From: a virus
IMG/VR virus record: IMGVR_UViG_3300030328_003198
Location: 1 to 28,343 of that record
Strand: one strand, 5' to 3'
DNA: 28,343 nt
The notes below the pieces were generated by a model, which saw nothing but the letters and a program-made list of their open reading frames with translations, was not told where the DNA came from and ran no database searches. Numbering within the stretch: position 1 is the stretch's first letter; every line of letters starts with the position of its first letter. A program made the translations under genes and the position numbers. This document shows positions 9,757-26,786 of the stretch, one piece after another.

Positions 9757-12700
9757 ATGCCAGAAATAAAAAAGACTTTCCTCCGTGGGAAGATGAATAA
9801 AGACCTCGATGAGAGACTTATGCCTGATGGCGAATATAGAGATGCTGTAAACATACAAGTTTCTTCTACAGAGGATAGCGATGTGGGAACAGCGCAAAAT
9901 ATACGTGGTAATAAATTATTAAAGGATTTATCTACCACTACTTTATTTGGTGCTAATGCTAAATGTGTAGGTAAAATAGCTGATGAAGAAAATAACACGT
10001 TGTATTGGTTTGTAAAAGGAGCGGCAAAACAAGGTATTATTGAATATAATACAACAACAAATATAACAAAACCACTTGTTATTGATTTAACAGGAGCTAT
10101 ATTAAATTTTCCTGATAATGAAATTACAGGTATAGTTATAATTGATAGAAACTTAGCATGGACAGATAACAATTCAGAACCTAAAATAATAGATATTAAT
10201 GATTTTGTAACATATAATACATATACAACATTATCTTATTCAGCTACAACGAAAATTGGTAATTCTGATATAACAGAAGCAGATATAACTGTTATAAAGA
10301 AAAAACCAATAGCTGCTCCAACTGTTGCTATAACAAAACACACTTCAACTCCTTCTGATAAATCTTTATTTGAAGATAAATTTATAAGATTTGCATATAG
10401 ATGGAGATTTAAAAATGGTCAATATTCAGTTATTTCACCTTTTACAGACCCTGTGTTTGATCCTGATTTAACCACAGGGAATGCTTATGATTTAGAAGAA
10501 GGATATAATAACAGAATGTTAAACTATATATCTAAAATAAGATTAACTGGTTTTGATATAACGCCTTCTAATTTAGATTCTATTGACGTTTTATATAAAG
10601 AGTCTAATAATTCTAATATTTATATATATAAAACTATACTAAGTACTTCTTTCGCAACTGCTATCCCGGTAGATATAGAAAAAGAAAGTGTTTATTCTGT
10701 AATACCAGAAAAACAATTATTTAGACACTATGATAATGTGCCTTATAAAGCTAAAGCTTTAGAGATTATAGGCAATAGATTAGTGTTTGGTAATTATATA
10801 GATGGTATAGATTTAAGTGGATATGAGCCTGATTTTGAACAAGGAAATAGTAAAACTGAATTTGTAACAAGAACCGGTATACCCGTTATAACAGGAACAA
10901 ACAATACAGATAAGAGAACAATTAAATCTGGTAGATCATATCAGTTGGGTATTGTTTTTGAAGATAAATATGGTAGGCAATCACCTGTAATAAGTAATGA
11001 TACTGGTTTAATAAAAAGAGCTTTTGCAGGGGCTGCCCCAAAAAAGTTAAATGTAAAAATGGGTGGTAATAAGCCCACGGACAGTTATGATGCATCTGCA
11101 AACCCTGATGGAAGAATAACACATTTTAAATTTTATATAAAAGATTCAACTGCGGAGTATTATAATTTTATTGCTGAACAGGTTTATGCTGATACATCAA
11201 ATACTGAGCATGCTTGGGTTTCTATACCTAGTTATGAAATAAATAAATTAAAAGAAAATAATGAAATAGCTTTAAAGAAAGCTGCAGATGGTGGAGTGGT
11301 ATCAACTATATCAAAATATAAAATACTTGATATTTCTGAAAGTAAACCTAAAACTATTAGTACCGCTGAAACTGTTAATACTGATGGTAGGTTTTTTATA
11401 AAACTTAAAAAAGACGCAAACCTTACAAACGAAACAATAGCGCAAGGTGGTATAGCTTCAAGCTCATTAATAACAGATGGAGATTCTAACTGGGTTGGCG
11501 GAGATTCAGGAGGTATATTTTTAGGACAATATAGTGTAGCGGGGGATAACAATATCCATGAAAGATATAGGTTTTATTATAATGACGGTAAAATAGTTGA
11601 AGTAGTTGATAACCACGCTTACGGTGTAGATAATGATTTTGAGCAGAGTGGTGGTAATTACACTGTAAACAACCCTTGTAGTTCGTCAGCGGGTAATAAT
11701 TGGAAAAATTTAAATAAAACAGGGTCTGATAGTTCTGGTACGGTTGCTTCTGTACATGTTAGAAATATGGTGTCTGGTAGTGGGTTTAATGATTACCCTT
11801 ATGAATTTTACGTTTGCTTAACTAGCCCATCAACACCTAGTAATCCAAATTCTGGAACTGGCCCAGCAATATTTGAAACAGTGCCAGAAGAAAATATATT
11901 AGATATATATTATGAAATAAGTGATTCGATAGCAATTGCTAATTATAATACAACCCAAAGTTTAAATTGGTACAATGCTTTCGATTTTGGGGATGGTGTG
12001 GAATCAAACAGAATTAAGGATGATTTTAATGAAGATTTCATAAGTACACAAATAAAAGCATCAACTACTATAGATAGTCCTTTTAAGGAAAAAACAAATA
12101 AATCAAGTTTAATATATTCTGGATTATATAACTCAAGGAATGATTTTAATAATTTAAATCAGTTTAATACTGGCGAAAAAATAACTAAAGAATTAAATAC
12201 AGAATATGGTTCAATACAAAAGTTACATTCCAGAAATACTGATTTAGTAGCGTTTTGTGAAGATAAAATATTAAGAATATTAGCAAATAAAGATGCCCTT
12301 TATAATGCTGATGGCAATGCTAATTTAGTTTCAACTAACAATGTATTAGGACAAGCAGTTCCTTATGCAGGAGAATATGGTATTTCAAAAGATCCAGAAT
12401 CTTTCGCTACAGATGGTAATAGAATTTATTTTTCAGATAAATCAAGGAATGCAATATTAAGATTATCCAGAGATGGTTTAACAGTAATATCTAGTAAAGG
12501 TATGAAAGCTTATTTTAGATCTTTATTAAATGCTCAAACTTTACCTGTAGTTGGTTCTTTTGATGCGCATTCAGATCAATATATAATATCTCTTGATAAT
12601 TCTGATGTTGATAAGATAGAAAGTGTTTCATTTAAAGAAGATGTAGACGGTTGGGTTTCAAGATTAGGTTTTGTAATAAAAGCTGGACTTTCTATAAATG

Positions 12701-13401
12701 GGGAATTCTATAGTTTTAATTCAGGTAATCTATACCAACACCACCACCCAGGAGTAGTGAGAAATTTATTTTATGGTACACAATATAGTTCAGGTATTCA
12801 AATAATAATGAATGATGAGCCTTCTACTGTTAAAAACTTTAAAACAATATCCTATGAGGGAAGCCAAGCTAAAGTGGGTACACAAAAAGGATGGCAAGTA
12901 GATACGGTTGAAACTGATTTGCAATCTGGAAAAATAATAGAATTTAAAGATAAAGAGGGAAAATGGTTTGCAAACACATCAGGAGTAGATACTACACTTA
13001 ATAATTTAGATTCAAAAGAATTTTCAATACAAGGTTTAGGTCAGCTGAGTAGTTATGTTGCACCTTATCTACCACCTATAGTTACAACCCAGCCTACATT
13101 TAGTAATGTTGGCCAAACTTCTTTAACAGCACAAGCAAGTTTTAAAAATGAATCAGAGTTAACAGTTACTTATAAAGTTTATTTTGGTACTAATTCATCC
13201 TACGCTTCTAATACATTAACCGCGATACAAACAAGTACTAATTCTACTTTTACACCATCTTATTCACCAACTGGACTAACTTCAAACACAACTTATTATG
13301 TTACCTTTGTAGCAGATACAGGTGAATTTAGTGACGTTTTAACAAATACAGCTAACACAACAACAACTACTAATTGTAGTTTTAGTTTAGCAATAAGCTA
13401 A
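9757..13401 (+). CDS. Muzzle / tail stabilisation-type protein
   Basis: This 1214-aa protein likely closes the tail channel below the rings. The opening (KTFLRGKMNKDLDERLMPDG, then YRDAVNIQVSSTEDSDVGTA and QNIRGN) is a conserved-looking start that I associate with P22 gp10-like stabilisation or muzzle proteins of marine phages. Repeated beta blades are visible, for example TDGNRIYFSDKSRNAILRLS at about residues 888-907, suggesting a beta-propeller-like core. YQHHHPGVVRN is near residue 993. An inserted Ser/Gly/Asn-rich stretch lies at about 620-705. From about residue 1109 to 1205 there is a fibronectin III-like module (TYKVYFGTN, then GLTSNTTYYVTFVAD) and the protein ends in a Thr-rich tail. 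No enzyme motif is seen. Six bases separate it from the adhesin gene, so the two are probably co-expressed partners. An alternative is a large tail-hub or baseplate-like protein. Confidence 0.66.
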   Translation: MPEIKKTFLRGKMNKDLDERLMPDGEYRDAVNIQVSSTEDSDVGTAQNIRGNKLLKDLSTTTLFGANAKCVGKIADEENNTLYWFVKGAAKQGIIEYNTTTNITKPLVIDLTGAILNFPDNEITGIVIIDRNLAWTDNNSEPKIIDINDFVTYNTYTTLSYSATTKIGNSDITEADITVIKKKPIAAPTVAITKHTSTPSDKSLFEDKFIRFAYRWRFKNGQYSVISPFTDPVFDPDLTTGNAYDLEEGYNNRMLNYISKIRLTGFDITPSNLDSIDVLYKESNNSNIYIYKTILSTSFATAIPVDIEKESVYSVIPEKQLFRHYDNVPYKAKALEIIGNRLVFGNYIDGIDLSGYEPDFEQGNSKTEFVTRTGIPVITGTNNTDKRTIKSGRSYQLGIVFEDKYGRQSPVISNDTGLIKRAFAGAAPKKLNVKMGGNKPTDSYDASANPDGRITHFKFYIKDSTAEYYNFIAEQVYADTSNTEHAWVSIPSYEINKLKENNEIALKKAADGGVVSTISKYKILDISESKPKTISTAETVNTDGRFFIKLKKDANLTNETIAQGGIASSSLITDGDSNWVGGDSGGIFLGQYSVAGDNNIHERYRFYYNDGKIVEVVDNHAYGVDNDFEQSGGNYTVNNPCSSSAGNNWKNLNKTGSDSSGTVASVHVRNMVSGSGFNDYPYEFYVCLTSPSTPSNPNSGTGPAIFETVPEENILDIYYEISDSIAIANYNTTQSLNWYNAFDFGDGVESNRIKDDFNEDFISTQIKASTTIDSPFKEKTNKSSLIYSGLYNSRNDFNNLNQFNTGEKITKELNTEYGSIQKLHSRNTDLVAFCEDKILRILANKDALYNADGNANLVSTNNVLGQAVPYAGEYGISKDPESFATDGNRIYFSDKSRNAILRLSRDGLTVISSKGMKAYFRSLLNAQTLPVVGSFDAHSDQYIISLDNSDVDKIESVSFKEDVDGWVSRLGFVIKAGLSINGEFYSFNSGNLYQHHHPGVVRNLFYGTQYSSGIQIIMNDEPSTVKNFKTISYEGSQAKVGTQKGWQVDTVETDLQSGKIIEFKDKEGKWFANTSGVDTTLNNLDSKEFSIQGLGQLSSYVAPYLPPIVTTQPTFSNVGQTSLTAQASFKNESELTVTYKVYFGTNSSYASNTLTAIQTSTNSTFTPSYSPTGLTSNTTYYVTFVADTGEFSDVLTNTANTTTTTNCSFSLAIS

Positions 13402-13407
13402 TATCAT

Positions 13408-16400
13408 ATGGCAACATTTACTTTAACAGGAACATTCGGAGCAGACTTTAGCAATACAGATACTATTTCTCTTGCGGCTAGCGCGGGATCAGTTTCACCA
13501 GATACTACTACTAAAAGTGCTTTAGCGGCAGGATTAACTATTACAGCTAATAATAATGTAACTGTAACAGCTACATGTTCTAGTGGTAATTGTAATGGGA
13601 CTATTCAAACTATTCTTACACCTTTAGCAACTGGTATAGCTTATGATTGTAATACTAAAACATGGGCAACAGCTGCTTTTAATTGTGAAACTGGAGCTGT
13701 AACATTAACAGCAGTAGATAATACAACAACAATTTCAAATGTTTCCCCAGCAACTTTAACCACAAATAGTGGGACACAAAATGTTAGTTTTAGTTTTGTT
13801 GATAGTAATAATAGTGCGTATAGCAACGCTGGCACAACAATAAATGGATGTACAGTAGCTGTGGATACAAACGTTGCGACATCGGTTTTAATCTCTGGGC
13901 CTACTATAGGACAAGCAGGGACAAATATAACTTTAACAGCGTCGGATACCTGCATACCATCAACACCAACATATACTTGGTCAGGTAGTACTATAGATGG
14001 ACAAACTGGAACAACAAAAACATTTCATGAGGATGCTCCGGGAATATATGTTTATACAGTTTCAGCAACATATAATGGTGTTACATATTCAGATGAACAT
14101 ACAGTAGAGTTTTTAGCTGAACCAGTTGTAGATGTGGTACACGCTGGAGGTGGTAGCGGAGGCGGGACTACTGCTTATAATACAGAAACAGTAACATTAA
14201 GGGCTGATACTACGAATATAACGTCGCCAACTTATCAGTGGTATAGAAAAACAACAACACCTACAAATAGCGCGCCAGTAGTTGATCACCCAACAAATAA
14301 CAATCTTATATCAGGGCAAACAGCACAAGAGTTGCAAAGAACTGAAGCGGCAGGAACTACTGCAACATATTATTATAACTGTAGAGTAAGTGGTAATAAT
14401 TCTGTAAGCGGAAGTACTATTACACCTGTGTATGATGATAATGATTGGAGCATTGGCTGGAGTGATAGACCTTCTTTCTCTTTTTATAGATTGCCAAGTC
14501 AAACGCCAGCTCATAGTGAGGCGTGTACAACTACAGCTAATCAAGTTACTTTATATACAGATAGCTCTGTTTTAAACCAAGTAACAAAATTATATAAAAC
14601 CGCAGCAGGTAGTGTTAGTGGGTTTCCAGGAACAGGAACATATATTGCGACTTATAGTGGCGTTAAATATTATGCTCAAGTTAACTTAGGAGGCACCCCA
14701 CAGGAAGCTACAGTGCAAGGTAATTGGCTTCCATGTACTTCTTATAATATTGAAACAACAGGAAATGATGAGGGGACAAATGGGGTTATAACTGCAAATA
14801 TTACTGAAACAGTAACTTTACAATTTGTAAATCAATCTAATGCAGTAGATTCAGCTATCTCTCAATACAGTTGGACAGCTAGTGGTACTGCGGTTGGTAC
14901 TAATTCGCAAACATTAAATACAGATTCAACAAGACCAACATTAGGACCAGATGAAGAAGAACTTATAACATATGGGTGTACAGTTACATTTAACGATGGA
15001 AGACCCGATGTGTTTAAAAATATTCAAATAAAATGGCAAAACCCAGGCACTTTAAAAGTGCAAGCAGTAAAATGTGGGGGATCTACAGTAAGATATATAA
15101 GAATAAGTGGCCAAACATCATTAAATTATTCTAGCGGTGCTAATATATATGAACTTACAGCGATTAGCAGCAGCCAACTTTTAGATGGAAATGGTTGTTA
15201 TACTATAACTCAATACACAGGAAGTGAGTATAGCGCAACAGCTACAGCTATAGGGCAAAGTGGGTCAATGCAGCCTTTTGCAAATTGTGATCAGTGTAAT
15301 GGTGTAAGCGCACCTCCTCCTCCAAATGTATATTGGGGATTAAGAGAGTGTGGTACATTAAGTGAAGGATTTAGGACAAATAATACAATATCTGAAGATA
15401 CTAGTTTAAGTATAAATGAGAGAATAAAAGATGATAACACAGGTTTATATTATTTAGTTATAAATAATACCGCTACAACAGGAGCTGTAGTGAATTATTC
15501 TACAACAGGGCTTACTGGTTGTCCAGATATAGCGGAATCTAGATATTATGGTATTGAAAAATGTGATGATGGGGTACTTTATAGAACACAAGCTACAAAC
15601 GATTCTGTATCATTTAGTTTAAACCAAATTGTTGAAGGTGGGGGTACGACTTTCAGAATATTTGATGTGGATGTAGGGGTAAATGATTATACAGAATTTT
15701 CATCAGGAGTTTCAGCTTCTAATTTATCAACTTGTCCGCTGGGGACCTACACATGTAGTACACACTCAGATTGGGTAACTGTTAGTTACAACTCAGGCAC
15801 TCAAGCTGTATCAGTAGAACCTACAAGAACCACAACAACAGTCCATAGTTTTAGTCCAACAACTATTAGTCCAGGGAGCGGTAATGTTGCAATTACATTT
15901 ACATTCTCTGATAGTAATTCAGCTTATACGAATGCAAATGCACAAGTTAATTGTTCAAACGCTATTCTTTTAGATACAGGAACTGACGCTATAACTTATT
16001 ATGCAACGTTTGTTACATGTAACGAACCAACAGGTGCGGTGATTTTTGTTTCTAGTCCAAATCCTATTGATAGCACTATTGTTTTATCAGATCAAAATGA
16101 ATGTTATTCGTTTTCTAATAATAACTTAGGAAATCCAAATTCTGATTTATCAAATTATACTACATATAATTCAAAATCTACATCAGCTCTTAACTGTTCT
16201 GATTGTGCGGATGTTGTTAATCCACCACCGCCACCTGGAACTCCAACTTGTTATTCTATACTAGCAACAGCTCAAACTGTTGATCCAGCTACTGATGCTA
16301 CAGCAATGGAGAATTTATGTTCAGGAAGACAGAGAACAGTTCATATGAATGGTAACGGTTTAGCATTATCAACACAAATATATTCAGATGATAGCTGTAC

Positions 16401-16500
16401 AACACTAAGGTCAACACCTGGGTATTTTGCAAATAGTAGTCATTACTTCTATTGGAGTGGTGTTTCATTAACACTAATAGATAGTTTAGGATGTAATTAA
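13408..16500 (+). CDS. Large cysteine-rich modular adhesin / receptor-binding candidate
   Basis: This 1030-aa protein is rich in Thr, Ser, Asn and Cys and built of beta modules. Ig/PKD-like segments are at about residues 186-230 (YTWSGS, then IYVYTVSATYNGVTYSDEH) and 270-340 (YQWYRK, then ATYYYNCRV). A module with a leading Cys repeats: C556 (VQAVKCGG), C648 (YWGLREC), C719 (YYGIEKC) and C871 (FVTCNEP). Two of these end in a CxxC followed by a proline linker (C627/C630 and C930/C933). A stretch of about 49 residues occurs twice (106-154 and 809-857). There is no signal peptide, so it is a virion protein, not secreted. Position after the muzzle-type gene and the modular build fit host-surface binding. 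The target receptor is unknown. It may also be a decoration fibre rather than the main receptor binder. Confidence 0.68.
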   Translation: MATFTLTGTFGADFSNTDTISLAASAGSVSPDTTTKSALAAGLTITANNNVTVTATCSSGNCNGTIQTILTPLATGIAYDCNTKTWATAAFNCETGAVTLTAVDNTTTISNVSPATLTTNSGTQNVSFSFVDSNNSAYSNAGTTINGCTVAVDTNVATSVLISGPTIGQAGTNITLTASDTCIPSTPTYTWSGSTIDGQTGTTKTFHEDAPGIYVYTVSATYNGVTYSDEHTVEFLAEPVVDVVHAGGGSGGGTTAYNTETVTLRADTTNITSPTYQWYRKTTTPTNSAPVVDHPTNNNLISGQTAQELQRTEAAGTTATYYYNCRVSGNNSVSGSTITPVYDDNDWSIGWSDRPSFSFYRLPSQTPAHSEACTTTANQVTLYTDSSVLNQVTKLYKTAAGSVSGFPGTGTYIATYSGVKYYAQVNLGGTPQEATVQGNWLPCTSYNIETTGNDEGTNGVITANITETVTLQFVNQSNAVDSAISQYSWTASGTAVGTNSQTLNTDSTRPTLGPDEEELITYGCTVTFNDGRPDVFKNIQIKWQNPGTLKVQAVKCGGSTVRYIRISGQTSLNYSSGANIYELTAISSSQLLDGNGCYTITQYTGSEYSATATAIGQSGSMQPFANCDQCNGVSAPPPPNVYWGLRECGTLSEGFRTNNTISEDTSLSINERIKDDNTGLYYLVINNTATTGAVVNYSTTGLTGCPDIAESRYYGIEKCDDGVLYRTQATNDSVSFSLNQIVEGGGTTFRIFDVDVGVNDYTEFSSGVSASNLSTCPLGTYTCSTHSDWVTVSYNSGTQAVSVEPTRTTTTVHSFSPTTISPGSGNVAITFTFSDSNSAYTNANAQVNCSNAILLDTGTDAITYYATFVTCNEPTGAVIFVSSPNPIDSTIVLSDQNECYSFSNNNLGNPNSDLSNYTTYNSKSTSALNCSDCADVVNPPPPPGTPTCYSILATAQTVDPATDATAMENLCSGRQRTVHMNGNGLALSTQIYSDDSCTTLRSTPGYFANSSHYFYWSGVSLTLIDSLGCN

Positions 16501-16519: not shown

Positions 16520-16855
16520 ATGAGCCAAATAACACTAAACATAGACGTAAAAAGAAACACATCTCTGCAAGTCGGGGATGTTATATACTATTTAGGTACA
16601 GACGGCACAACTAAAAAAAGAATAGGGTCTTTAGTTTCTAAAACAAATTCGACTATAGTTTGTGAAATAGACCCATCTCCTGTAGGAGACATATCACAAT
16701 TAGCTAGCAATAGCTATATATTTTTTGCAAAAGACAATATAATAAATACATCAGGATTGTTGGGATATTTTGCAGAAATAAACTTTTCCAACGATTCAAC
16801 AGATCATGCGGAATTATTCGCAGTTAACTCAGAAATTTTTATAAGTAGTAATTAA
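16520..16855 (+). CDS. Small conserved virion-type protein, function unknown
   Basis: This is a 111-aa beta-rich protein. The first part (QVGDVIYYLG, then TIVCEID) looks like a small barrel strand pattern. The second half (YIFFAKDNIINTSGLLGYFA, then HAELFAVNSEIF) resembles the C-terminal signature of small hypothetical proteins I associate with marine cyanophages and related phages near tail genes. No catalytic motif, signal peptide or membrane segment is seen. It sits between the adhesin and the internal-protein genes; only one base separates its stop from the next ATG, so translation is probably coupled. It may be a neck or tail accessory protein, but the sequence alone does not show what it does. 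Confidence 0.72.
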   Translation: MSQITLNIDVKRNTSLQVGDVIYYLGTDGTTKKRIGSLVSKTNSTIVCEIDPSPVGDISQLASNSYIFFAKDNIINTSGLLGYFAEINFSNDSTDHAELFAVNSEIFISSN

Positions 16856-16856
16856 A

Positions 16857-17564
16857 ATGGTAGAATATACAACAATAATAGTAGAAGCAGCAGATACACT
16901 GCAGTACGGATTTTTAGCTGGACTAGGAATGAAAATGTTACCTTCTTTAATAGGTGGTGTAGGTAGTTTATTTGGTGGTAAAAAAAGAAAAGATGAATTT
17001 GCGGGTGCGAAAAGCGCTTATGATGATGCCAAAAGGTCTTATAAAGATTTTAAGTTTGAGAATTTATATTCAAATTTAGAAAATCCATTTGAGGATTTAA
17101 GAGTATCCACTGAGGCAGCTGAATTTCAATCTCAACAAGTGCAGCAAGGTTTAGCACAATCACTTGACGCTTTAAGAGGAGCAGGTGGGGGTACAGGTGC
17201 GGCTGCAGTTGCACAAGCAATGGCACAACAACAATCAAAAACACAACAGCAAATAGCAGCTGATATTTCAAAGCAAGAAACAGCTAACGAGAGATTAGCG
17301 GCACAAGGACAATTCCAAATGCAATCACAAGAAGCAAAAGCTGGTATGGATATTCAAGGTAAAGAATTTGATAGAGAAAGTACTATATTTGGTATGGAAC
17401 AACAAAACTACGCAGCAGCGATGGAGCAAAAAGCTAAACAACAAGCGGCTGGGGGAAAAGGAATAGGAGCTTTAATAGGTACTATAGGTGGCGGATTGCT
17501 TGGAATGGATGAAAATACAAATTTCATGGGTAGTTTAAAAAATATGTTCACAGGTCCCAGTTAA
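16857..17564 (+). CDS. Putative internal virion (ejection) protein, T7 gp14-like
   Basis: This 235-aa protein has the make-up of small ejection proteins that leave the capsid first and help to span the cell envelope. There is a hydrophobic Gly-rich segment near the N-terminus (about residues 18-44, FLAGLGMKMLPSLIGGVGSL within it), a long Gln/Ala-rich helical middle (about 80-200) including a Gly patch (RGAGGGTGAAAV), and a second Gly-zipper-like hydrophobic segment near the C-terminus (GIGALIGTIGGGLLG, about 203-217). No signal peptide cleavage site is evident. It precedes a 422-aa protein and the 2489-aa giant, an order reminiscent of T7 genes 14-15-16. Function is inferred from composition and order. 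An alternative is a holin-like or pilot protein. Confidence 0.58.
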   Translation: MVEYTTIIVEAADTLQYGFLAGLGMKMLPSLIGGVGSLFGGKKRKDEFAGAKSAYDDAKRSYKDFKFENLYSNLENPFEDLRVSTEAAEFQSQQVQQGLAQSLDALRGAGGGTGAAAVAQAMAQQQSKTQQQIAADISKQETANERLAAQGQFQMQSQEAKAGMDIQGKEFDRESTIFGMEQQNYAAAMEQKAKQQAAGGKGIGALIGTIGGGLLGMDENTNFMGSLKNMFTGPS

Positions 17565-17575
17565 AATAAAAAATT

Positions 17576-18844
17576 ATGGCAGCAGATAAAGCATTAATAG
17601 CAGGCGCGGCAAAAGTCGCAGGCGCAAAAGCAAATTTAGATTACTCGATAACGAAAGCAGCTACTGAGTTGGGTAGTGACATAGAAGAAGTTATTCAGCT
17701 TAATCTTAAAAACTTACAAGAAACAGATAAAGCGAATACAGACTTTCAAAACGAGCAATACGCGAGTGTAGCGAGTTCTGTACCAAATACCGATGATTTA
17801 AATGATACCCCTTTTTCAGGTGTAGTACAAACCACAGTAGATTCATATGTAAGCCAAGGGAATGCTTTTGCTGCAATTGCTCGTGCTGGTGGGCAAACAT
17901 TTGATCATAGAGTATTAAATGACCCTATTTTAAAAGGTAAAAGAAAAGATATGGGTACAGCTATAGCGGCAGCTAATCATGAAAATGATTATATTACAGA
18001 AAGTAGAAAAAATTATTTAAAAAATTCCAAAGGAAGGCATATTGATCCAACTAGCGGTGATTCTATATTAGCTACTTCTATTTATAATAGTGAATTTGAA
18101 TGGAAAAAAAATGAAGAAACCGGGAAATATGTATATATAGTAAACAGCAAAGAGTATTCTATAGCAGATGCAAGGGCGGCAATGGATAAGGTTAGCTCGC
18201 CTGATATTTCAAAAAGTATTTTTACTAGTGCCCAAAATAATACAAAAAATGCTTTTAAAGGTGCGACTAACAACGCACAAGCAGAACAAACAATAAAAGA
18301 CTTTAAAAGAAATCTAGACCCAATAATTGAAGTAAGTGGAGATGTTAATCAAGATAATTTAAGAAATGCTGAAATGTTTTATATAGGGCAAAACCCAGGG
18401 GTTTCAGTGGGAGCGTTAAGAAAACACAAGAATTTTATTACAAATGAGAAGTATGATGAAAAAAAATACGCTGAGTTTCTATCAAGGGAGATAGACAACT
18501 TTCTTAATAATCAAAAAAATCAACATTACACACCACCTGAAGTAGTAGAAGAAGATGTGCCAGAAGGAGATACTCCACATTTTATTGCCCAAGTAGCTAT
18601 GCTTGATAAAATAACAAGCAAATTCAATAAGTACCGAGTGGGTGAAAAACCTGGAATAGATTATTACTTATCACAAGAATTTCAAGAAATGTTACCAGAA
18701 GCGTTCTCATATTTTAAACATAAAGGTAAAGTACAAATTCAAGCTAAAGGAGGAGCTAAAACAGAACACACAATAGACCCTTCAATGAGTTTGGAATACA
18801 ATATGAATATGTTAAAACCTATGTTATTATCTAAGAAAAAATAA
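17576..18844 (+). CDS. Putative second internal virion protein
   Basis: I do not recognise this 422-aa protein by family. It is mostly helical and soluble. The N-terminus is Ala/Lys-rich (ALIAGAAKVAGAKANLDY), with charged helices to about residue 70, then mixed segments. Near residues 275-310 there is a unit NPGVSVGALRKHKNFITNEK followed by a helix ending FLNNQKN. An acidic linker (VVEEDVPEGDTP) lies at about 323-334, and it ends in a Lys tail. There is no signal peptide, membrane segment or catalytic motif. Its place between the gp14-like gene and the giant gene suggests a partner in the ejected protein set, comparable in position to T7 gp15, though it is shorter. The next gene starts two bases after its stop, suggesting coupled translation. 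Confidence 0.66.
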   Translation: MAADKALIAGAAKVAGAKANLDYSITKAATELGSDIEEVIQLNLKNLQETDKANTDFQNEQYASVASSVPNTDDLNDTPFSGVVQTTVDSYVSQGNAFAAIARAGGQTFDHRVLNDPILKGKRKDMGTAIAAANHENDYITESRKNYLKNSKGRHIDPTSGDSILATSIYNSEFEWKKNEETGKYVYIVNSKEYSIADARAAMDKVSSPDISKSIFTSAQNNTKNAFKGATNNAQAEQTIKDFKRNLDPIIEVSGDVNQDNLRNAEMFYIGQNPGVSVGALRKHKNFITNEKYDEKKYAEFLSREIDNFLNNQKNQHYTPPEVVEEDVPEGDTPHFIAQVAMLDKITSKFNKYRVGEKPGIDYYLSQEFQEMLPEAFSYFKHKGKVQIQAKGGAKTEHTIDPSMSLEYNMNMLKPMLLSKKK

Positions 18845-18846
18845 TT

Positions 18847-21800
18847 ATGAAATACCAATTTAATTTAGGTAACGACGAACTTGTTACTATAGAAAAAAAC
18901 GAATTACAAGAATTCACCGCTAATAATCCCAATGCAAAATTTGATGATTTTGTTAATGAAGATGATGCGGGAAATACAGACCCTTCACCGGAGAAAAAGG
19001 ATGCACCTGTGGAGGAAAACAAAATAGCATCCGATACGGAATCCACATCGGTAGATGGTTCTTCGGGTTCCATAGAAAATCAAACTGAAAATAACTGTCC
19101 AGATGGACAAGTAAAAGGAGCTGATGGGGAATGTTATGACCCAAAAGCAGAGAATACAAATGAAATTGCTGAATTTAATCCAGATAAACTTAATTATTTA
19201 CCTAAGGACGAAATAATAAAAATTGCTAAACCAAAAGCTAATGCTGCTTTATATAAAAATTACCACGATGCAGTAGAAGTAAACGATGAAGAGATTAAGG
19301 AAATGTGGTATAGGAAATATTTTGGATTAGATGAAATAGATAAAAGAAGGAACCAAGATCTAGTAAAAATAGTATCAATGCCTTCTCATAGTTCTGGCTA
19401 TGGTGCACAACCTGTTACTGAAGCTTTACCTTATAGCTCACAAGAAGTTAGAAATTTAATACCTCTTAGTAAAATAGAAGATTATGATAAATGGCTAAAA
19501 GGAGAATTGAAAATTTCCCCGTTAGACATGTTCGCAACAGAGAAACTGTTAAAAGAGGACAAAGCAGATGACTTTTTTAAAAAATTATCTCCAAAAGAAA
19601 GAGCAAATCTTGAAAATATATTATCTGATAAAAACTTACAAATAGATAGTTTAAAAGAAGTTTTAGATATAAAATCAAATGAGGTTGACGAATTAGTTAA
19701 ACAATCAGAGAAAGAGTTGGGACCTATTGAAAACCGAATGGTGGAGATAAACAATAGATTAGAAAGAATTTATGATATTTATTCTGGAAGTATAGTAACT
19801 CCCCCTTCTGACGAAACAGTTAAAGAATTTAATACTTTAAAGACAGAATACGAAATGTTAGCTTCTCAAAGACGAGAAATAATAGGAAATTATACCACTG
19901 AATTTGAGGGCTATAATAAAACTTTAGAGGACTACCGAATAAACGCTGCTGATTATACTGGTAATATAGCTGGTTTAGAAAGCGCTAAGAAAAATTACAA
20001 TATATTATCTCAATTTGGACATCAATTAGACAAACAGGTTATAGCCTCTGGGTATACGCTGCTTGGTAAGTTTGGACCAGAAATTGAAAAAAATAGTTTT
20101 AATTATAATTTAAAGGCAAGTGAAGAAATAGAAAATTTCCCGAGGAGATTGAAAGTAGAAGAAGTAAAAGATGCTAATACATTTGGTAGATTTGTCGTTG
20201 AAACTTTAACAGACCATGGTTTGTCAATGGTCGCTGCAATGATCCCGTATTTTGGTAAAATTTTAAAAGGCGGTAAGTATTTAAATACTGCTAGGTGGAC
20301 TAGTTTAGGTCTCTTTGGGGTTTCATCTGGTGGAGCTCAAATGTTTGATATGGAAAAAAGAGATTTTGATATATCTGAAAGACTAAAACAAATTGATACA
20401 GCTTTAGATAAAGAGGGTATTAGTAGAGAGGAATATTCGCAGTTGACCCTAGAAAAAAACGAACTAGAAAATATTATTCCGTATACTGAATTTCAAAAAA
20501 TTATTTTACCAGTTTTTAAGGCTGGATCAGAAATACTTACTGAAAGACTAGGTTCAATGCGTTTTGTTGAAAGTTTAGCTGGTATGGGTAAAGTGTTGGA
20601 TGCAATGGATGTTGAGAAAGCAATATGGCATGCTTTAAAACAAATACCAACAGGTGTAGTTATTGAAGAGGGTGAAGAGATAGTTAACTTAGCGCTTGGA
20701 AACATAGCTGAGAATTTGGTTTTAAGAGAGGGGCAAGGGCACCCTTTAAAAAGTGTGTTTGATGGGGTTACCCCTGATATGTTAGCGAAAACTGCTGTAA
20801 CCGCATTGGTTATAGGTGGCCCGGGACACTATAATAACATTAAAGGTATTGTTAAAAGGCAGTTGATGACCAATGCTGAAAGAAAAAAATTAAATGATAA
20901 AGCTGAAGAGTATATTCAATTGATGGAGGACCATGAAAATAAAAATATAGATAGAAAGGAATTTAATGAAAAAAGAAGGGAGCTATTAAAAGATATGGAT
21001 TTAGATCAAATGGTTAGTTTAAATAAACTTAATCACCTTTCAATTGATGACTTAAAAGAATTAGGGCTGATAAATTTAGAAATTTCAAACTTATTAAAAA
21101 GAACAGCAACGGGAGCTGGTAATACAAGAACATCATCTGAATATAGAGACAGACAATTTGATAAAAATAAAGAGGAGTATGAAAGACTTATTGAAAGAAG
21201 AGAAGCTCTTTTAGGTAAAGCTTATAATCCTGAAGGTAAAGAATTTACCCCTGATCAAGCTTTTATATATGGTCTATATCAAATGTCAATAGATATAGCA
21301 GAATCTAAAGTACCAAAAAATGGGCAATTGATTGTTCTTGATGAAAAAAGTAGAGAAGAAGCAATTGAAAAAATGCTACAAAATGCTAAAGAAGGCGGTC
21401 CTAAGGTGCCCAAATGGGTGCTTGATGGGATTAGGACAAATAATGCTTTCCAATTTAATAATAATATTTATGTAAATCACGATTTAATTTTAGCGAGCAT
21501 ATTAAGTGCTAGAAGTAATAAAGATATGAATGCATTATTTGCAGCTGTTTCCCCGGTCCATGAATTATTCCATATAAAAATTGGGGCTGATAAAATAATC
21601 ATAAACAATAAACTACAAGGAGATTTAAAATATGCAGCAAGAGGTTTAAAGACTACACTAAGGGAAAAATATGAAAGCGGTAGAATAACAAATAAAGAAG
21701 CTTATGATGCCATATTAGCAAGATTGGATTCTTATAGTAAAAGAAAAGGAAAAGGTGGGAAACTAGATATAGAGGAATATTTTACAACAATATTTGATGC

Positions 21801-24800
21801 GTATACTTTGGGCTTGATTACTGATTCTGATATTGATTTAGATTATGCTATGAAAACTATTGTTGAAAAAGCTTTATCAATAATGCACCCGAATTCAAAT
21901 ATATTTGGAAGAATAAATACTACTAGAGATGCTTTCAATTATATAAAATCTTTTAATAAACAAGCTTTAACATCTAAAGCAAATATTTTAGGGAAAGAAG
22001 AAGATGATAAACAAGAGATTAAATTTTCCGAAAATATATTAGGTTTATATGATCAATATGGTAAAGATCATGTAGCTATGATAGAGGAGGGTAGTAAACT
22101 AAATAAAGACGGTGAGTTTGTTGAAGATATAACTAAATCAGAATTTGGTCAATCTATTGGGGGGTTAGTGCAAAAAATAACAAAAGACTTATTTGACCCA
22201 ACCCTTCCTGATAATACAAAAGTTATTGATCCTATTAGATCTAAAGCTAGGGCGATATTTCAAACTGAAGTTACACAAGACGCGGCTATGATGATTTTAA
22301 ACGAGTATAAGCCAGAATTAGGTTCTATTGGTCAATTTACCACTTCAAGACTTTATAAAAGAGTACAAAATAAATTAAGGAAAATGGGTGTTATGCCTTC
22401 TGAAGATGAGGGGGGATTAGGTATGGCTACTGAAGCAACTGACGCTACGTTAAAAGATCAAAAACAAACTGAGCAGCAAGAGGATAAAATTACCGACCCT
22501 AAGGATGAAATTAAATTAAAAAGGCTAGATACTAGAATAAGTTTTAAAAGAAAAAAACCTAAAAAAGTTAAAGATGAAGACGGAAATGAAAAAACAATAC
22601 TAGTAGATGAGTTTACTCCGATGAATGAAATTGAAATACCCGGTGAAACTGTTACTGAAATAATTGATGGAAAAAAGATAACAAGGCCTAAAACTCTTTC
22701 TGATAAAGTATTAGAAGCTGTAATTAAAACTTTTCAAACTACGTTGCCTAAAGTAAATGAAAAGGAGTTTAGAGCAAAATTCGATCAAGCAAACCAAGCT
22801 GAAATAATACCCTTGCTACAAGAAGAATTTGCTGTAGTAAAAGACAAGGACAAGAACAGGGTTGATAAATTTAGATTGTTTTTACAGGAAAAAAAGAATT
22901 TTGAAGGTATATTAGGTAAACTTCCGCAAAGTGTAATAAACAAAAGATTTAAAACTTTAGGTAAAAAAACAGGTAGAGAAACCTTAGGTGCTGGTAAAGG
23001 AATATTTGAAAAATTAAATGTAACACAAAAAGAATTTATAGAGTATTTCTCAGGAAGAGATTTAGCTTCTAATGTAAGAAGTGATAGAAAAAAATCACTG
23101 ATAATAGCGCTTGCAAATGAATTAGCTTTTGATGCTACTCTTGATGCTATTTCTGATCCTAATGTTATTAAAAAATTAGGAATACAAGGAGTTATTGTTA
23201 ATAACGCATGGACTGATGACCTTCTAAAAACAATTGAACGCGGTGAGTTAGATATAGATAATTTGGAAAAAAGTAATGAAGCAGCGGGTATTAAATTTAG
23301 TAATTTCTTAGGAGAATTAAATAATCAAGGGCTAGATCTTAACTATGCTTATGATTTTGTTGAAACATTTAAAGCTGATAGAGGTAAGGCGGGGGATAAA
23401 AATATGGAATTGTATCAATCACTTTTAGATGATGAAAATATTGCTATAAAATGGAAAGCATTTGAAACAGAAGTATTAAATAATTTAACAGCCGCATCGG
23501 CTAAAATACCTGGTTTAAAAGTGGTGTCTACAGAAGTTGCTGCAAATAATAATAATTTTATTGACATGCAATTAGTAGCTAATGGTAATAAAATAGGTAT
23601 TGAAGTAAAATTAAATGCTAGGGCTAGGATCGGCACTGCGGCTAGAATTTATCAAGATAAAGATGGGAATTTAGTAATTAAATCTCCCGAAGGTATTAAT
23701 TTAGAGGGGCTATTAGATTCAAATAATCCTCAAATTGTTGAATTTAAAAAATTATTTCAAGAGTGGTTAGATATAGCTAGTGAAAGCGAAGATAAAAAAA
23801 TACAAATGAATGAAGGCAGAAATGGCTTAACTACAATTCCATTATCACCAAAAACTAGTGCTGCGTTAAAAAAATCAGGATTACAAGCTAAAATAGGAAG
23901 AACTTATGTGGAAATTCCAATACAGATTGTTTTAGATTATTATATAAATAAAGATAAAAAAGGTTACCTTGGAGAATATATTATGCTAAATAATAAATTG
24001 TATTCTTTAGGTAACGATCCTTTAAATACTAACGCTCCTAAATTAGATTCTAATGTAACTGTAAATATTAGATTAAGAGGAGACGCAATTGAGCCTGATA
24101 GACATAAACCAGAAAATGAAAGATTAAAAACTTATAGGATTTCTGCCGAAGTAAGACTAAAAGATAAAAACGGTAAATGGAATGTAAATGATAGTAATAT
24201 TGAATTAAACACGCCTAAAGATTATGTAAACACTTTTTCTAATATAAAATTTAGTAAGAATTTAGAAGATGAAATGCACGGAATGATTGGAAGGACAAAA
24301 GGTATAGATGTTGGGAAAATGTTTTCAGAACCACAAGCAAGAAGATTAGGTAAAAAAGCGGAAAGAATCAGGTTGTTTGTCCCAAATACAGCAGAGGATC
24401 TATTAGGGTTAACATATAGATTTCTTGGTAAAGGTAAACAAGGCGATAAAGATATACAATTCTTTAAAAAGAATTTGTTTACACCATTGACGGAAGCTAA
24501 TATAAAATTTGAAGCAGAACAAGTTATAGCGGAAAGATATTTAAAAGAAGCGAAAGATATAATAGAGGAACAAGGAATAGATTTAACAGAAGAGGCTTTA
24601 GAGGGCTACACTAACGATCATGTTATAAGAATTTTTATGTGGAATCGTAGGGGCTTTAAAGTTCCAGGATTAGACCCTGACAATAAAGAAAATGAGCCTG
24701 GACCTGAGCAAGCTAAAATGGTAAGATATGCAAGACAAAACTATGATATTCTAGCAATAGCAGATGCAATAGAAGCGGCTTACCCTGATTCTCAATATGG

Positions 24801-26316
24801 TAAACCTAGTAAAAGAGGCTGGGTATCAGGAACAATTACAACTGATTTATTAGAACATACTAACGAATTCACTAGACAAAAAATTTATAAAAAGTTTTTT
24901 AATAATGTTCAAGGTATGTTTGGTAAATTTGATACGAGCACAGGTAGGTTAACGGGCCCAATTGCTAATAAAATTAGGGCTATGTATGGTAATACTTTTA
25001 TGAAAGCGTTAGAAAGCTCAATGTATAGGATATACACTGGTAGAAACAGAGCTTATACTTTAGATCCTCAGGGTGGTATAATGTTAGACTGGATGAATAA
25101 TGCTATTGGTAACATTATGTTTATTAACTCTAGATCTGCTGTATTACAGACTATTTCGCATATGAACTTTACAAATTGGTCAGATAACAACCCTTTAGAA
25201 ATAGGGAAAAGGTGGGCTGACCATAAACAATTTACAGAAGATTTTAAAATGATTTTCTTTTCTGATTATTTAAAAGCCAGAAGAGGAGGTTTAAGGACAG
25301 ATGTTCAAGAACAAGAAATTGCAGAAGCAGCTAAAAATTCTAAAAATGATATTAGGTCAATGATAGCTGTAGTTCTTAAAAAAGGTTTTATGCCTACTCA
25401 GTATGCTGATAGTTTTGCTATTGCTTTGGGTGGCGCATCATTTTATAGAAATAGATATAACACATATATTCAAAAAGGCATGTCAAAGAAAAAGGCTCAA
25501 GAAAAAGCTTTTGCTGAAATGCGTGAAATAGCCGAGGATACTCAACAGTCTGGTAGACCTGAAAAAATATCTATGGAACAAGCTGGTTTAGGTGGTAGAC
25601 TTATATTAGCTTTTCAAAATACACCTATGCAGTATAATAGATTAATGAAAAGGGCTATACAAGATTTATATAATGGAAGAGGTGATTTTAAAACAAATCT
25701 TTCTAAAATAATTTATTATGGTGGTATGCAAAATGCTTTATTTTATGCACTACAACAAGGTTTATTTGCTGTAATATTTGATGAGCCAGAAACAACAGAA
25801 GAAGAAGAAAAAGAAAAAAATAGATATTATAGATGGTTAAATGGTATGTCTGATTCAATATTGAGGGGTTCTGGAATATTTGGTGCCGTAGTATCTACAG
25901 GTAAAAACACATTGTTAAAAGTTTTAGAAAGAGAAGGGTTTGATGAAAAAGCAATTGAAGAAATAGCTAATCTTTCCCCACCGCTTGGAAAGAAAACAAG
26001 ACAATTGTTTGATATAAGAGATAAATTCCAATATAAACAAAATAAAGAAAAAATAAAAGAACTAGGTTTAGACACAAGAAACCCAGCTATATTAGCAGCG
26101 GCTGATGCAATATCATTTGGTATTAATTTACCAACAGATAGAGCTTTGAAAAAAATGAATAACTTAAGAACAGCAATGGAAAAAGAAACTGAAATGTGGC
26201 AAAGAATAGCTTTAGTATTAGGTTGGAGTAATTGGGAGCTAAATATAGAAGATGATACAAATTCTCCTTTTAAGGGAGGATTTAAAGGAGGATTTAAAGA
26301 ACCAAAATTTAAATAA
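18847..26316 (+). CDS. Giant multi-domain (polyvalent-type) internal virion protein with peptidase-like and nuclease-like motifs
   Basis: This 2489-aa protein fills over a quarter of the window. Seen in order: an acidic N-terminus with a short Cys motif (C84-x11-C96); charged helices; hydrophobic patches near residues 460-475 and 648-660; HELFH at 905-909 with a downstream Glu pair (E976/E977 in DIEEYFTTIF), as in gluzincin-type metallopeptidases; a PD-(D/E)xK-like core D1573-x12-E1586-V-K1588, preceded by a helix (AFETEVLNNL); then a long helical C-terminal region with QTISHMNFTNWSDNNP and FQNTPMQYNRLMKRAIQDLY, plus a hydrophobic segment at about 2291-2310. IKFS recurs at 1058, 1482 and 1800, near apparent domain borders. 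Polyvalent proteins of this type are known to be injected with phage DNA; that role is inferred here from size, position after ejection-type genes and the enzyme motifs. Activity of either motif is unproven. The gene ends in a short GGFK repeat. Confidence 0.8.
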   Translation: MKYQFNLGNDELVTIEKNELQEFTANNPNAKFDDFVNEDDAGNTDPSPEKKDAPVEENKIASDTESTSVDGSSGSIENQTENNCPDGQVKGADGECYDPKAENTNEIAEFNPDKLNYLPKDEIIKIAKPKANAALYKNYHDAVEVNDEEIKEMWYRKYFGLDEIDKRRNQDLVKIVSMPSHSSGYGAQPVTEALPYSSQEVRNLIPLSKIEDYDKWLKGELKISPLDMFATEKLLKEDKADDFFKKLSPKERANLENILSDKNLQIDSLKEVLDIKSNEVDELVKQSEKELGPIENRMVEINNRLERIYDIYSGSIVTPPSDETVKEFNTLKTEYEMLASQRREIIGNYTTEFEGYNKTLEDYRINAADYTGNIAGLESAKKNYNILSQFGHQLDKQVIASGYTLLGKFGPEIEKNSFNYNLKASEEIENFPRRLKVEEVKDANTFGRFVVETLTDHGLSMVAAMIPYFGKILKGGKYLNTARWTSLGLFGVSSGGAQMFDMEKRDFDISERLKQIDTALDKEGISREEYSQLTLEKNELENIIPYTEFQKIILPVFKAGSEILTERLGSMRFVESLAGMGKVLDAMDVEKAIWHALKQIPTGVVIEEGEEIVNLALGNIAENLVLREGQGHPLKSVFDGVTPDMLAKTAVTALVIGGPGHYNNIKGIVKRQLMTNAERKKLNDKAEEYIQLMEDHENKNIDRKEFNEKRRELLKDMDLDQMVSLNKLNHLSIDDLKELGLINLEISNLLKRTATGAGNTRTSSEYRDRQFDKNKEEYERLIERREALLGKAYNPEGKEFTPDQAFIYGLYQMSIDIAESKVPKNGQLIVLDEKSREEAIEKMLQNAKEGGPKVPKWVLDGIRTNNAFQFNNNIYVNHDLILASILSARSNKDMNALFAAVSPVHELFHIKIGADKIIINNKLQGDLKYAARGLKTTLREKYESGRITNKEAYDAILARLDSYSKRKGKGGKLDIEEYFTTIFDAYTLGLITDSDIDLDYAMKTIVEKALSIMHPNSNIFGRINTTRDAFNYIKSFNKQALTSKANILGKEEDDKQEIKFSENILGLYDQYGKDHVAMIEEGSKLNKDGEFVEDITKSEFGQSIGGLVQKITKDLFDPTLPDNTKVIDPIRSKARAIFQTEVTQDAAMMILNEYKPELGSIGQFTTSRLYKRVQNKLRKMGVMPSEDEGGLGMATEATDATLKDQKQTEQQEDKITDPKDEIKLKRLDTRISFKRKKPKKVKDEDGNEKTILVDEFTPMNEIEIPGETVTEIIDGKKITRPKTLSDKVLEAVIKTFQTTLPKVNEKEFRAKFDQANQAEIIPLLQEEFAVVKDKDKNRVDKFRLFLQEKKNFEGILGKLPQSVINKRFKTLGKKTGRETLGAGKGIFEKLNVTQKEFIEYFSGRDLASNVRSDRKKSLIIALANELAFDATLDAISDPNVIKKLGIQGVIVNNAWTDDLLKTIERGELDIDNLEKSNEAAGIKFSNFLGELNNQGLDLNYAYDFVETFKADRGKAGDKNMELYQSLLDDENIAIKWKAFETEVLNNLTAASAKIPGLKVVSTEVAANNNNFIDMQLVANGNKIGIEVKLNARARIGTAARIYQDKDGNLVIKSPEGINLEGLLDSNNPQIVEFKKLFQEWLDIASESEDKKIQMNEGRNGLTTIPLSPKTSAALKKSGLQAKIGRTYVEIPIQIVLDYYINKDKKGYLGEYIMLNNKLYSLGNDPLNTNAPKLDSNVTVNIRLRGDAIEPDRHKPENERLKTYRISAEVRLKDKNGKWNVNDSNIELNTPKDYVNTFSNIKFSKNLEDEMHGMIGRTKGIDVGKMFSEPQARRLGKKAERIRLFVPNTAEDLLGLTYRFLGKGKQGDKDIQFFKKNLFTPLTEANIKFEAEQVIAERYLKEAKDIIEEQGIDLTEEALEGYTNDHVIRIFMWNRRGFKVPGLDPDNKENEPGPEQAKMVRYARQNYDILAIADAIEAAYPDSQYGKPSKRGWVSGTITTDLLEHTNEFTRQKIYKKFFNNVQGMFGKFDTSTGRLTGPIANKIRAMYGNTFMKALESSMYRIYTGRNRAYTLDPQGGIMLDWMNNAIGNIMFINSRSAVLQTISHMNFTNWSDNNPLEIGKRWADHKQFTEDFKMIFFSDYLKARRGGLRTDVQEQEIAEAAKNSKNDIRSMIAVVLKKGFMPTQYADSFAIALGGASFYRNRYNTYIQKGMSKKKAQEKAFAEMREIAEDTQQSGRPEKISMEQAGLGGRLILAFQNTPMQYNRLMKRAIQDLYNGRGDFKTNLSKIIYYGGMQNALFYALQQGLFAVIFDEPETTEEEEKEKNRYYRWLNGMSDSILRGSGIFGAVVSTGKNTLLKVLEREGFDEKAIEEIANLSPPLGKKTRQLFDIRDKFQYKQNKEKIKELGLDTRNPAILAAADAISFGINLPTDRALKKMNNLRTAMEKETEMWQRIALVLGWSNWELNIEDDTNSPFKGGFKGGFKEPKFK
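26264..26304 (+). repeat. Short direct/inverted repeat forming the C-terminus of the giant protein
   Basis: Twelve-base units TTTAAGGGAGGA (26269-26280) and TTTAAAGGAGGA (26281-26292), then a partial copy from 26293, encode FKGGFKGGFKEP. The first unit also forms a small palindrome with the bases before it (CTCCTTT with AAGGGAG, 26264-26278). Read on the - strand it gives the pattern AATCCTCCTTTAAATCCTCC, which resembles short palindromic repeats scattered in many bacterial genomes. It may be such an element inserted at the gene end, or a simple slippage repeat. Confidence 0.6.
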
Positions 26317-26324
26317 TTATAATA

Positions 26325-26786
26325 ATGGAAAGAATTAGTGAACATATATCATATAAAGAAGGTATTAAATCAAATACAGCAACAAGGTTGGATATTGATA
26401 ATTCCCCTAGTGAATATCATTTAGGTAACATGAGCGGTATTGCTATACATATATTTGAACCTTTAAGAAAATGGGTGGGAGGCCCTATAAAAATAAACTC
26501 TTTTTACAGGTCAGTTGAGTTGAATAAAGCTATTGGTGGTAGTGCGAAATCGCAACACTGTGAAGGTAGAGCAATAGACATTGACGATACTTTTGGACAT
26601 AAAACTAATGCTGAAATGTTTGAATATATAAGAAGTAATTTAAACTTTGATCAAATGATATGGGAATTCGGTACAAATGATAATCCAGACTGGGTGCACG
26701 TGAGTTTCGTATCTAATGAGCAAAATAGGAATAGATGTTTAAAAGCTAAAAAAGTAAATGGAAAGACAAAATATAGTGTTATATAA
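26325..26786 (+). CDS. M15-family peptidase, probable endolysin
   Basis: This 153-aa zinc peptidase should cut peptide cross-links in host peptidoglycan at lysis. The M15 signature H-x2-G-x-A-x-D is present as H78-C-E-G81-R-A83-I-D85, and the third zinc ligand is H125 in PDWVHVSF. E114 (MIWEFG) lies between them. The region before the motif (INSFYRSVELNKAIGGSAKS) matches the family's substrate-loop pattern (YRS...N...GG...S.H). The length equals one catalytic domain with no separate wall-binding domain and no signal peptide, so a holin or other release step is needed; none is obvious in the window. The start ATG has an AATAAT leader. The AGGAGG sequences upstream are about 35 bases away and belong to the giant gene's repeat, too far to act as its ribosome site. 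Its 3' end overlaps the lipoprotein gene. Confidence 0.88.
   Translation: MERISEHISYKEGIKSNTATRLDIDNSPSEYHLGNMSGIAIHIFEPLRKWVGGPIKINSFYRSVELNKAIGGSAKSQHCEGRAIDIDDTFGHKTNAEMFEYIRSNLNFDQMIWEFGTNDNPDWVHVSFVSNEQNRNRCLKAKKVNGKTKYSVI

Follow-up and report, generated by a model that had tools for sequence, protein, structure and literature searches.

Ejection or cargo proteins are encoded in one order in four described systems with which the locus treated here is compared. The genes concerned run gp12, 13, 14, 15 and 16 in T7, gp14, 7, 20 and 16 in P22, gp54, 53, 52, 51 and 50 in N4, and gp43, 44, 45, 46 and 47 in crAss001; in all four, tail genes (head/tail genes in P22) lead into ejection or cargo genes with the largest last, and only in crAss001 is the first protein longer than the second (842 versus 534 amino acids, aa). 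Passages of PMC10172136 give crAss001 gp45 and gp46 as cargo proteins C1 and C2, expected to form a channel as in T7, and passages of PMC12633501 present N4 gp50 as an ejected giant with an HExxH motif. Also pertinent are the polyvalent proteins, which, in the part of Iyer et al. (2017, PMC5512222) drawn on here, are typically encoded near virion genes and have zincin domains proposed to process the chain. The present subject is a trio of adjacent genes, for a small (S), a middle (M) and a giant (G) protein, in a 28,343-nucleotide stretch of viral DNA (IMG/VR record IMGVR_UViG_3300030328_003198; 'the window' below) that is part of a 30.6 kb virus record. The three products are probably the ejection (virion-internal) proteins of a podovirus of Bacteroidota whose tail is crassvirus-like, with G in addition being polyvalent. 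This is the best reading because counterparts are annotated from tandem mass spectrometry (MS/MS) proteomics, S is conserved upstream of the giant, and the order is that of T7, P22, N4 and crAss001. The genes, each with an ATG start, and the relevant parts of G are:

16857..17564, + strand: S, small protein (235 aa), probably a pore protein of the outer membrane and the first to be ejected

17576..18844, + strand: M, middle protein (422 aa), probably forming a tunnel through the periplasm or part of the internal core

18847..26316, + strand: G, giant protein (2489 aa), probably an ejected virion protein with several domains (polyvalent)

20026..21000, + strand: residues 394-718 of G, shared with cultured Cellulophaga virion giants (blastp, iterated profile)

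21229..21951, + strand: putative zincin-like metallopeptidase region of G, with HEXXH at residues 905-909 (21559-21573) and a candidate third ligand, E977 (21775-21777)

23479..24126, + strand: exchangeable module of G, residues 1545-1760, candidate PD-(D/E)XK-like nuclease (D1573, E1586, K1588)

24235..26247, + strand: conserved C-terminal domain of G, residues ~1797-2467, modelled as all-helical (alignment, AlphaFold2, BFVD)

Eleven bases separate the open reading frames (ORFs) of S and M and two separate those of M and G, and the three consecutive lengths and both gaps are exactly those given in an earlier, sequence-only reading of the window. Relatives were reached in two ways. Via the terminase, 82 loci were found and the records of 34, mostly the longer ones, were searched; 14 of the 34 have a match to G, and among the 20 without one are short fragments as well as two phage records, W01 and W02. 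In all 14, which were the first IMG/VR relatives found, a small and a middle ORF precede the giant, and each small protein has blastp matches among the other small ones. With a profile built on the C-terminal domain of the giant, 80 IMG/VR loci were then kept from among the matches listed; 599 pattern-matched IMG/VR stretches were listed in all, at least 589 of them relatives by that domain. With the eight giants lacking their own start set aside, S lies 5′ of G in 70 of 72 loci, and the two exceptions show just 548 and 899 upstream bases, so that the figure is 70 of 70 where room suffices. A single ORF fills more than 88% of the interval between S and G in 69 loci, size rises from S through M to G in all 66 IMG/VR loci where it is measurable, and median gaps are 13 and 8 bases. 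In one locus, L150, S is present and no ORF occupies the M slot by the rules of the script used. The arrangement is far beyond chance. Searches of an annotated phage collection with S, M and G by tblastn yielded 0 records each, a degenerate-pattern search with G alone gave no result, and a literature search, mostly without subscription papers, found no publication that treats the ejection set of these phages.

Cultured phages provide the link to the virion. The same trio is in the same place in Cellulophaga phages phi40:1/phi38:1 and phi18:3, Tenacibaculum phage Gundel_1 and Flavobacterium phage elemoE; in phi38:1 the order is gp97 (muzzle), gp98, gp99, gp100, gp101. All of phi40:1 gp97-gp101 carry the note 'annotation based on experimental MS/MS proteomics analysis', and the same note is attached to gp120, gp121 and gp123 of phi18:3, a member of a different family. 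These notes presumably go back to Holmfeldt et al. 2013. A small or middle protein that was non-structural had been named beforehand as the finding that would speak against an ejectosome; instead, the phi40:1 and phi18:3 counterparts of all three proteins are MS/MS-annotated. Virion presence is thus a matter of record annotation in two relatives, and the counterparts of S and G are linked to it by sequence. A hidden Markov model (HMM) of S from which the cultured proteins were held out finds phi38:1 gp99 (2.2e-7), Gundel_1 gp72 (9.5e-12) and elemoE gp20 (2.3e-6), and phi38:1 gp99 is in turn linked to phi18:3 gp120 (tblastn, 1e-13). For G, blastp matches residues 394-718 to phi38:1 gp101 at 1.4e-5 and to phi18:3 gp123 at 0.008 over 68 columns. 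The iterated profile of this region covers 59 of 81 giants and, among cultured phages, five more; at 1e-3 it picks up none of 95 reversed decoys. (The 81 are non-redundant, the near copies L155, L171 and L207 having been removed, and do not count the incomplete L112 and L113 or the cultured giants.) The cultured giants, including Gundel_1 gp74 and elemoE gp18, are accordingly like G in trio, order, homologous S and the 394-718 region, but have no sequence match to the C-terminal domain profile of the window's group; the Gundel_1 giant does appear in the fold search with that domain, at E 1.7e-4 and a TM of 0.19. For M the basis is position, size and conserved adjacency, the positional counterparts being phi40:1 gp100 and phi18:3 gp121.

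The composition of S (12.8% Gly, 13.6% Ala, 11.1% Gln) and its best 17-residue Kyte-Doolittle (KD) means (1.44 for the stretch that starts at residue 19, 1.27 within the last third and 0.70 in the middle) agree with its initial description as a small Gly/Gln-rich protein with two hydrophobic ends. The feature is a family one. In an alignment of 76 members, which leaves aside L103, L116 and newly found S proteins of at least 300 aa, both end thirds reach a KD of at least 1.0 in 51, where composition shuffles predict 5.2, and the end thirds hold 319 copies of GxxxG, a membrane packing motif, as against 152 +/- 11 in shuffles. The usual transmembrane threshold is a KD of 1.6. The maximal 19-residue value of the window's S, 1.27, is under it, and only one of 19 S proteins reaches it, so that the ends are hydrophobic and glycine-rich yet below threshold in 18 of 19. 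AlphaFold2 models S as all-helical with low confidence (predicted local distance difference test, pLDDT, 57.7; predicted template modelling score, pTM, 0.29), and a PDB sequence search with it returned nothing relevant.

In six-frame searches of 21 records, Pfam T7_gp14 matched three times, each time on the S gene and with at most 15.3 bits (cut-off 27), and P22_gp7 matched twice (cut-off 28), at 18.8 bits on the S gene and at 10 bits on crAss001 gp45; combined, four of the five sub-threshold matches are on the S gene and the fifth is on gp45 (C1). A coiled-coil control family matched in none of the 21 records. In 14 control genomes T7_gp14 matched in three and P22_gp7 in five, above cut-off in none and one, respectively. 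The S profile also matches residues 138-169 of crAss001 gp45 (P 8.5e-4 over 28 columns, reversed 0.22, with a single sequence on the crAss001 side). According to passages of PMC10172136, gp45 has a predicted transmembrane helix at 136-158, and the matched region covers it. With the cut-offs unmet and the sequence tie weak, S is taken to work like gp14, gp7 or gp45 and membership of their families is not claimed; by analogy it is a probable functional counterpart of T7 gp14, P22 gp7, N4 gp52 and crAss001 gp45.

M has a maximal hydrophobicity of 0.77 in a KD scan and no hydrophobic segment. Its profile finds none of the middle proteins of the cultured phages, which makes orthology of M positional only. 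Alignment by hhalign with T7 gp15 and P22 gp20 gave P 0.096 and 0.67, i.e. no homology, and with crAss001 gp46 P 0.12, again with a single sequence on the crAss001 side; a PHROG scan of 18 M proteins gave isolated weak matches, the best at 0.0024. From its place in the set M is a probable functional counterpart of T7 gp15, N4 gp51 and crAss001 gp46.

G occupies the place of T7 gp16, N4 gp50 and crAss001 gp47. Its region 394-718 includes two of the protein's more hydrophobic stretches, from 449 and 640. Further on is HEXXH, the zincin motif, which is present in 77 of the 81 giants, whereas among 136 other ORFs of these loci that reach 400 aa only 4 have it; ~0.014 per protein would be expected from composition alone. 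The two histidines, the glutamate and a later glutamate, in the window 68 residues past the last histidine, are invariant in 12 of 12 aligned rows, and in a profile comparison the region aligns with C1, the HExxH region of N4 gp50 (P 8.1e-5; 0.31 for the reversed control). From these motifs the region is probably a zincin-like metallopeptidase, and probably a protein-cutting domain. Some giants (L140, L144, L145, L148, L149) have a second HEXXH ~59-71 residues from the C-terminus. That of crAss001 gp47 (L119), a protein annotated as a putative RNA polymerase subunit, is also near the C-terminus, at residue 2157, and no mention of it was found in the literature passages available. A candidate homology of residues 394-718 to the N-terminal region of N4 gp50 (378-444) was rejected: it appeared only in iteration 3, and with N4 left out of the profile hmmsearch loses gp50 378-444, while the hhalign value is P 6e-4 and a decoy, P22 gp16 reversed, comes to 0.0047.

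The most conserved part of G is its C-terminal ~670 residues, at 32-59% identity to 64 other rows. The AlphaFold2 model from the 65 rows is almost wholly helical (pLDDT 78.3, pTM 0.76). Against PDB structures it has no match (Foldseek best E 0.97; VIA-align best Z 4.3, covering mainly model residues 334-518 and 524-638), and a PDB sequence search returned nothing relevant. BFVD, however, has 49 entries that match at E <= 1e-3; most are giant phage proteins, with 10-17% identity, and several carry the names polyvalent, MuF or nuclease. Pfam LPD38 matched in none of 42 records, nor in the control genomes, and no match was found for the idea that the domain corresponds to C2 of N4 gp50.

Immediately N-terminal to this domain is a slot whose occupant differs between giants. 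In the window it holds a module in which D, E-x-K and the following N are invariant in seven of seven aligned modules. D..ExK is the PD-(D/E)XK motif; none of Pfam, PHROG and PDB gave a match to the window's module, so that its reading as a nuclease is based on the motif. HMM labels for the slot in the 81 giants are HAD in 30, HAD plus P-loop in 7, PD-(D/E)XK-like in 10 (window included), HAD plus PD in 4 and no label in 30, and the double labels may reflect shared flanks. Zeta-toxin/AAA matches occur in 3 of 13 giants, and polynucleotide-kinase PHROGs fall on the modules of two of the relatives (L100, L105). The C-terminal domains of L193 and L209 are 82% identical, with HAD in one slot, PD in the other and no other blastp match. 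L193 and L205 have 93% identity in this domain and ~24% elsewhere. Among L193, L205, L169 and L173 the values are 93-98% in the domain and 24-42% in the remaining giant. For 32 pairs with S known, median identity is 85% for the C-terminal domain, 58.5% for S and 42.5% for the rest of G. The gap between the domain and the rest points to recombination at the domain boundary or very unequal rates. On a FastTree phylogeny of the domain, with the four joint HAD plus PD giants excluded, slot labels need 24 changes as against 36.2 in shuffles, which indicates that they are clustered yet often changed. The proposal that the giant carries enzymes is thus supported, at the level of motifs, by the HEXXH and nuclease-like modules, which in the window are on one chain. 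G also looks like a polyvalent protein, a point absent from the sequence-only reading.

A number of observations weigh against an ejection set. M is without a detectable relative outside its close group and is linked to the proteins seen by MS/MS by position only, and S and M of MW202828 are unlike in sequence. In the KD scan neither S nor G of the window has a strong transmembrane segment. The window's own S is matched by neither T7_gp14 nor P22_gp7, whose cut-offs are reached nowhere in the 21 records, and S profile comparisons with T7 gp14 (P 0.2), P22 gp7 (0.049) and N4 gp52 (0.2) amount to nothing. In a PDB sequence search the S profile matches a V-ATPase coiled coil at 5e-4, showing that such weak matches of S can be compositional. 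The giant of phi46:3 and elemoE gp19, in the M position, are annotated as hypothetical. Finally, phi38:1 gp101 is without HEXXH and its phi40:1 twin is present in virions, from which it follows that the protease is not essential to the machine.

A first alternative is a polyvalent cargo without a channel, with G a packaged, injected effector and S and M a capsid or portal plug, a chaperone or a scaffold for loading G. M has neither outside homologue nor hydrophobic segment, G bears enzyme-like modules, and polyvalent proteins are, in the passages of PMC5512222, usually encoded near virion genes. Against this, S has hydrophobic, GxxxG-rich ends, the trio keeps the gene order of known ejectosomes, and counterparts of all three proteins are in mature virions, which a scaffold leaves. 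This alternative is judged unlikely. Placement of the trio on the exterior, as tail, tail-fibre or tape-measure proteins, is less probable again. It would suit the position directly 3′ of muzzle and adhesin-like genes and the structural label in records, which gives no place in the virion. Yet the relatives have podovirus morphology with tails of ~23 nm (passages of PMC8776804), which seems too short for a 2489-aa tape measure. The window's S, M and G have no fibre or receptor-binding family match, and a short-tail-fibre PHROG matched at 0.089 in just 1 of 18 M proteins. The C-terminal domain of G, as modelled, is all-helical and folds like other polyvalent giants, and the corresponding crAss001 gp45, gp46 and gp47 are cargo (passages of PMC10172136).

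The least probable alternative, a very unlikely one, is that G is a virion RNA polymerase, like N4 gp50 and crAss001 gp47 as annotated. G has size, place and HEXXH in common with both, and gp47 is labelled a putative RNA-polymerase subunit. A profile of the giants against the N4 RNA polymerase domain, though, gave P 0.42, single giants gave 0.19 or worse where decoys start from 0.3, and hmmsearch stayed at decoy level, on which grounds the identification was rejected. The giants have no match to crAss001 gp47, and D-x-D-x-D-like motifs are in only 4 of 20 giants (the window's included), at differing places.

For the ejection set itself, the question is which described system is the better model. 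The sequence-only reading had named T7 genes 14, 15 and 16. The succession of tail tip, small, middle and giant protein does hold as in T7, P22, N4 and crAss001, and with T7 and P22 (passages of PMC8954989) the trio further shares rising size, a small protein of ~200-240 aa, tight spacing, and sub-threshold T7_gp14 and P22_gp7 matches that fall on the S gene. Membership of the gp14, gp15 and gp16 families is not supported: no curated cut-off is reached, no homology of M to gp15 or of G to gp16 was found, hhalign of S and G against single T7 and crAss001 proteins gave no result, and transglycosylase Pfam families are absent from 13 giants (E 0.01) and from the window's S, M and G (E 1). G is also about twice gp16 in size, with other domains. 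With crAss001 the order behind ring and muzzle genes is common, the muzzle is homologous, and gp47 is a giant of similar size (2341 aa) with HEXXH. The differences are a 1030-aa gene and a muzzle-tail gene that in the window intervene between muzzle and trio, the 842 aa of gp45 versus the 235 of S, the lack of matches of M and of the giant's conserved domains to gp46 and gp47 (gp47 P 0.62, single sequence), and an HEXXH that is near the C-terminus in gp47 and mid-protein in G. The N4 cassette (tail tube, plug, then gp52, gp51 and gp50 of 150, 644 and 3500 aa) has the same order and a zincin region in gp50 that G's matches, but no RNA polymerase domain was found in G, nor a match to gp50 C2. 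Like polyvalent proteins (passages of PMC5512222), G has a zincin-like domain, differing enzyme modules and a virion-gene setting, and its C-terminal fold is shared with BFVD proteins so named; here, however, a single fixed slot serves for HAD, P-loop and PD-(D/E)XK-like modules alike, and the giant belongs to a conserved S-M-G set. Overall, crAss001, with muzzle, C1, C2 and gp47, is a closer model than T7; the set is of the crAss/N4 style, and the earlier comparison was right in kind and too specific in naming T7.

How such an ejection set might work, including the order of release, insertion into membranes and the activities and targets of protease and nuclease, we infer as follows. S, M and G would be stored in capsid and tail and would exit before the DNA via the ring-and-muzzle tail. 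By its glycine-rich hydrophobic ends S would insert into the outer membrane and open it, and M would line or bridge the periplasm. G would cross as a loose, largely unfolded chain and refold at or inside the inner membrane; the fixed machinery would be its C-terminal helical domain and 394-718 region. The HEXXH domain would be a protease that may cut the G chain into pieces, and the slot module, here the candidate PD-(D/E)XK-like nuclease, would be an exchangeable payload that is released and acts on DNA entry.

The setting of the trio is that of a late operon. The window begins with a large terminase gene (PHROG, 1.8e-157) and a portal gene (PHROG, 3.1e-152), which are followed by capsid-type and adaptor-type virion genes, a ring/tail gene and then a muzzle-like gene. 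Three further features flank the trio:

9757..13401, + strand: muzzle-like tail-tip protein, 1214 aa (Pfam crAss_MUZ_C, E 4e-10)

16520..16855, + strand: 111-aa ORF, the muzzle C-terminal tail as a separate gene, directly 5′ of S

26325..26786, + strand: M15-type peptidase, 153 aa (Pfam Peptidase_M15_3, 8.6e-15; PHROG endolysin, 7.2e-28)

By blastp the muzzle matches phi38:1 gp97 at 8e-63 and crAss001 gp44 at 7.7e-5. A 1030-aa adhesin-like gene (13408-16500) separates it from the 111-aa ORF, which matches the last 95-100 residues of undivided muzzles (L101, 2.5e-18; L100, 1.8e-17). A separate muzzle-tail ORF of ~100 residues is found in 7 of 14 relatives (L102, L103, L105, L106, L108, L110, L113), and the tail is fused in the other seven. 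The M15 peptidase beside the giant may be a lysis enzyme or possibly a peptidoglycan enzyme provided in trans for entry. Opposed to the late operon is a gene for a class I-type ribonucleotide reductase large subunit (26942-28318, − strand; Pfam 1.2e-77). In cultured and circular relatives (L001, L002, L114), GroEL and/or GroES genes are near the packaging genes, upstream of the terminase, and perhaps serve folding of giant virion proteins.

The window's terminase finds 87 phage records, all, bar one unassigned, of phages of Flavobacteriaceae genera. Of 18 loci in bacterial or archaeal assemblies, half are in metagenome-assembled genomes (MAGs) of Bacteroidota; the other half are in MAGs labelled Aliivibrio, Woesearchaeota, Alphaproteobacteria and Ilumatobacteraceae and are presumed to be binning errors. 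The host is very probably a Gram-negative Bacteroidota bacterium, so that the outer membrane which had been assumed for it is very probable too.

A more general proposal, put forward tentatively and with less than even confidence, is that the giant is a general payload carrier in ejectosomes of marine Bacteroidota phages: fixed parts (a helical anchor at the C-terminus and a portion that crosses membranes), a zincin carried along to cleave the incoming chain, and a single cassette slot whose nucleases, HAD phosphatases or P-loop kinases are swapped between lineages. The enzyme delivered, and with it the means of disarming or taking over the host ahead of any gene expression, would then differ from phage to phage. 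Whatever the standing of that proposal, three hypothetical genes of a very common marine phage group now have a function-level reading, and the trio is tied to the ejection sets of crAss001 and N4. Attention is drawn to a little-noticed feature, a conserved metallopeptidase motif together with an enzyme slot in the virion giant that is probably first into the host. With cultured relatives whose records carry proteomics notes (phi40:1, phi18:3), it is directly testable.

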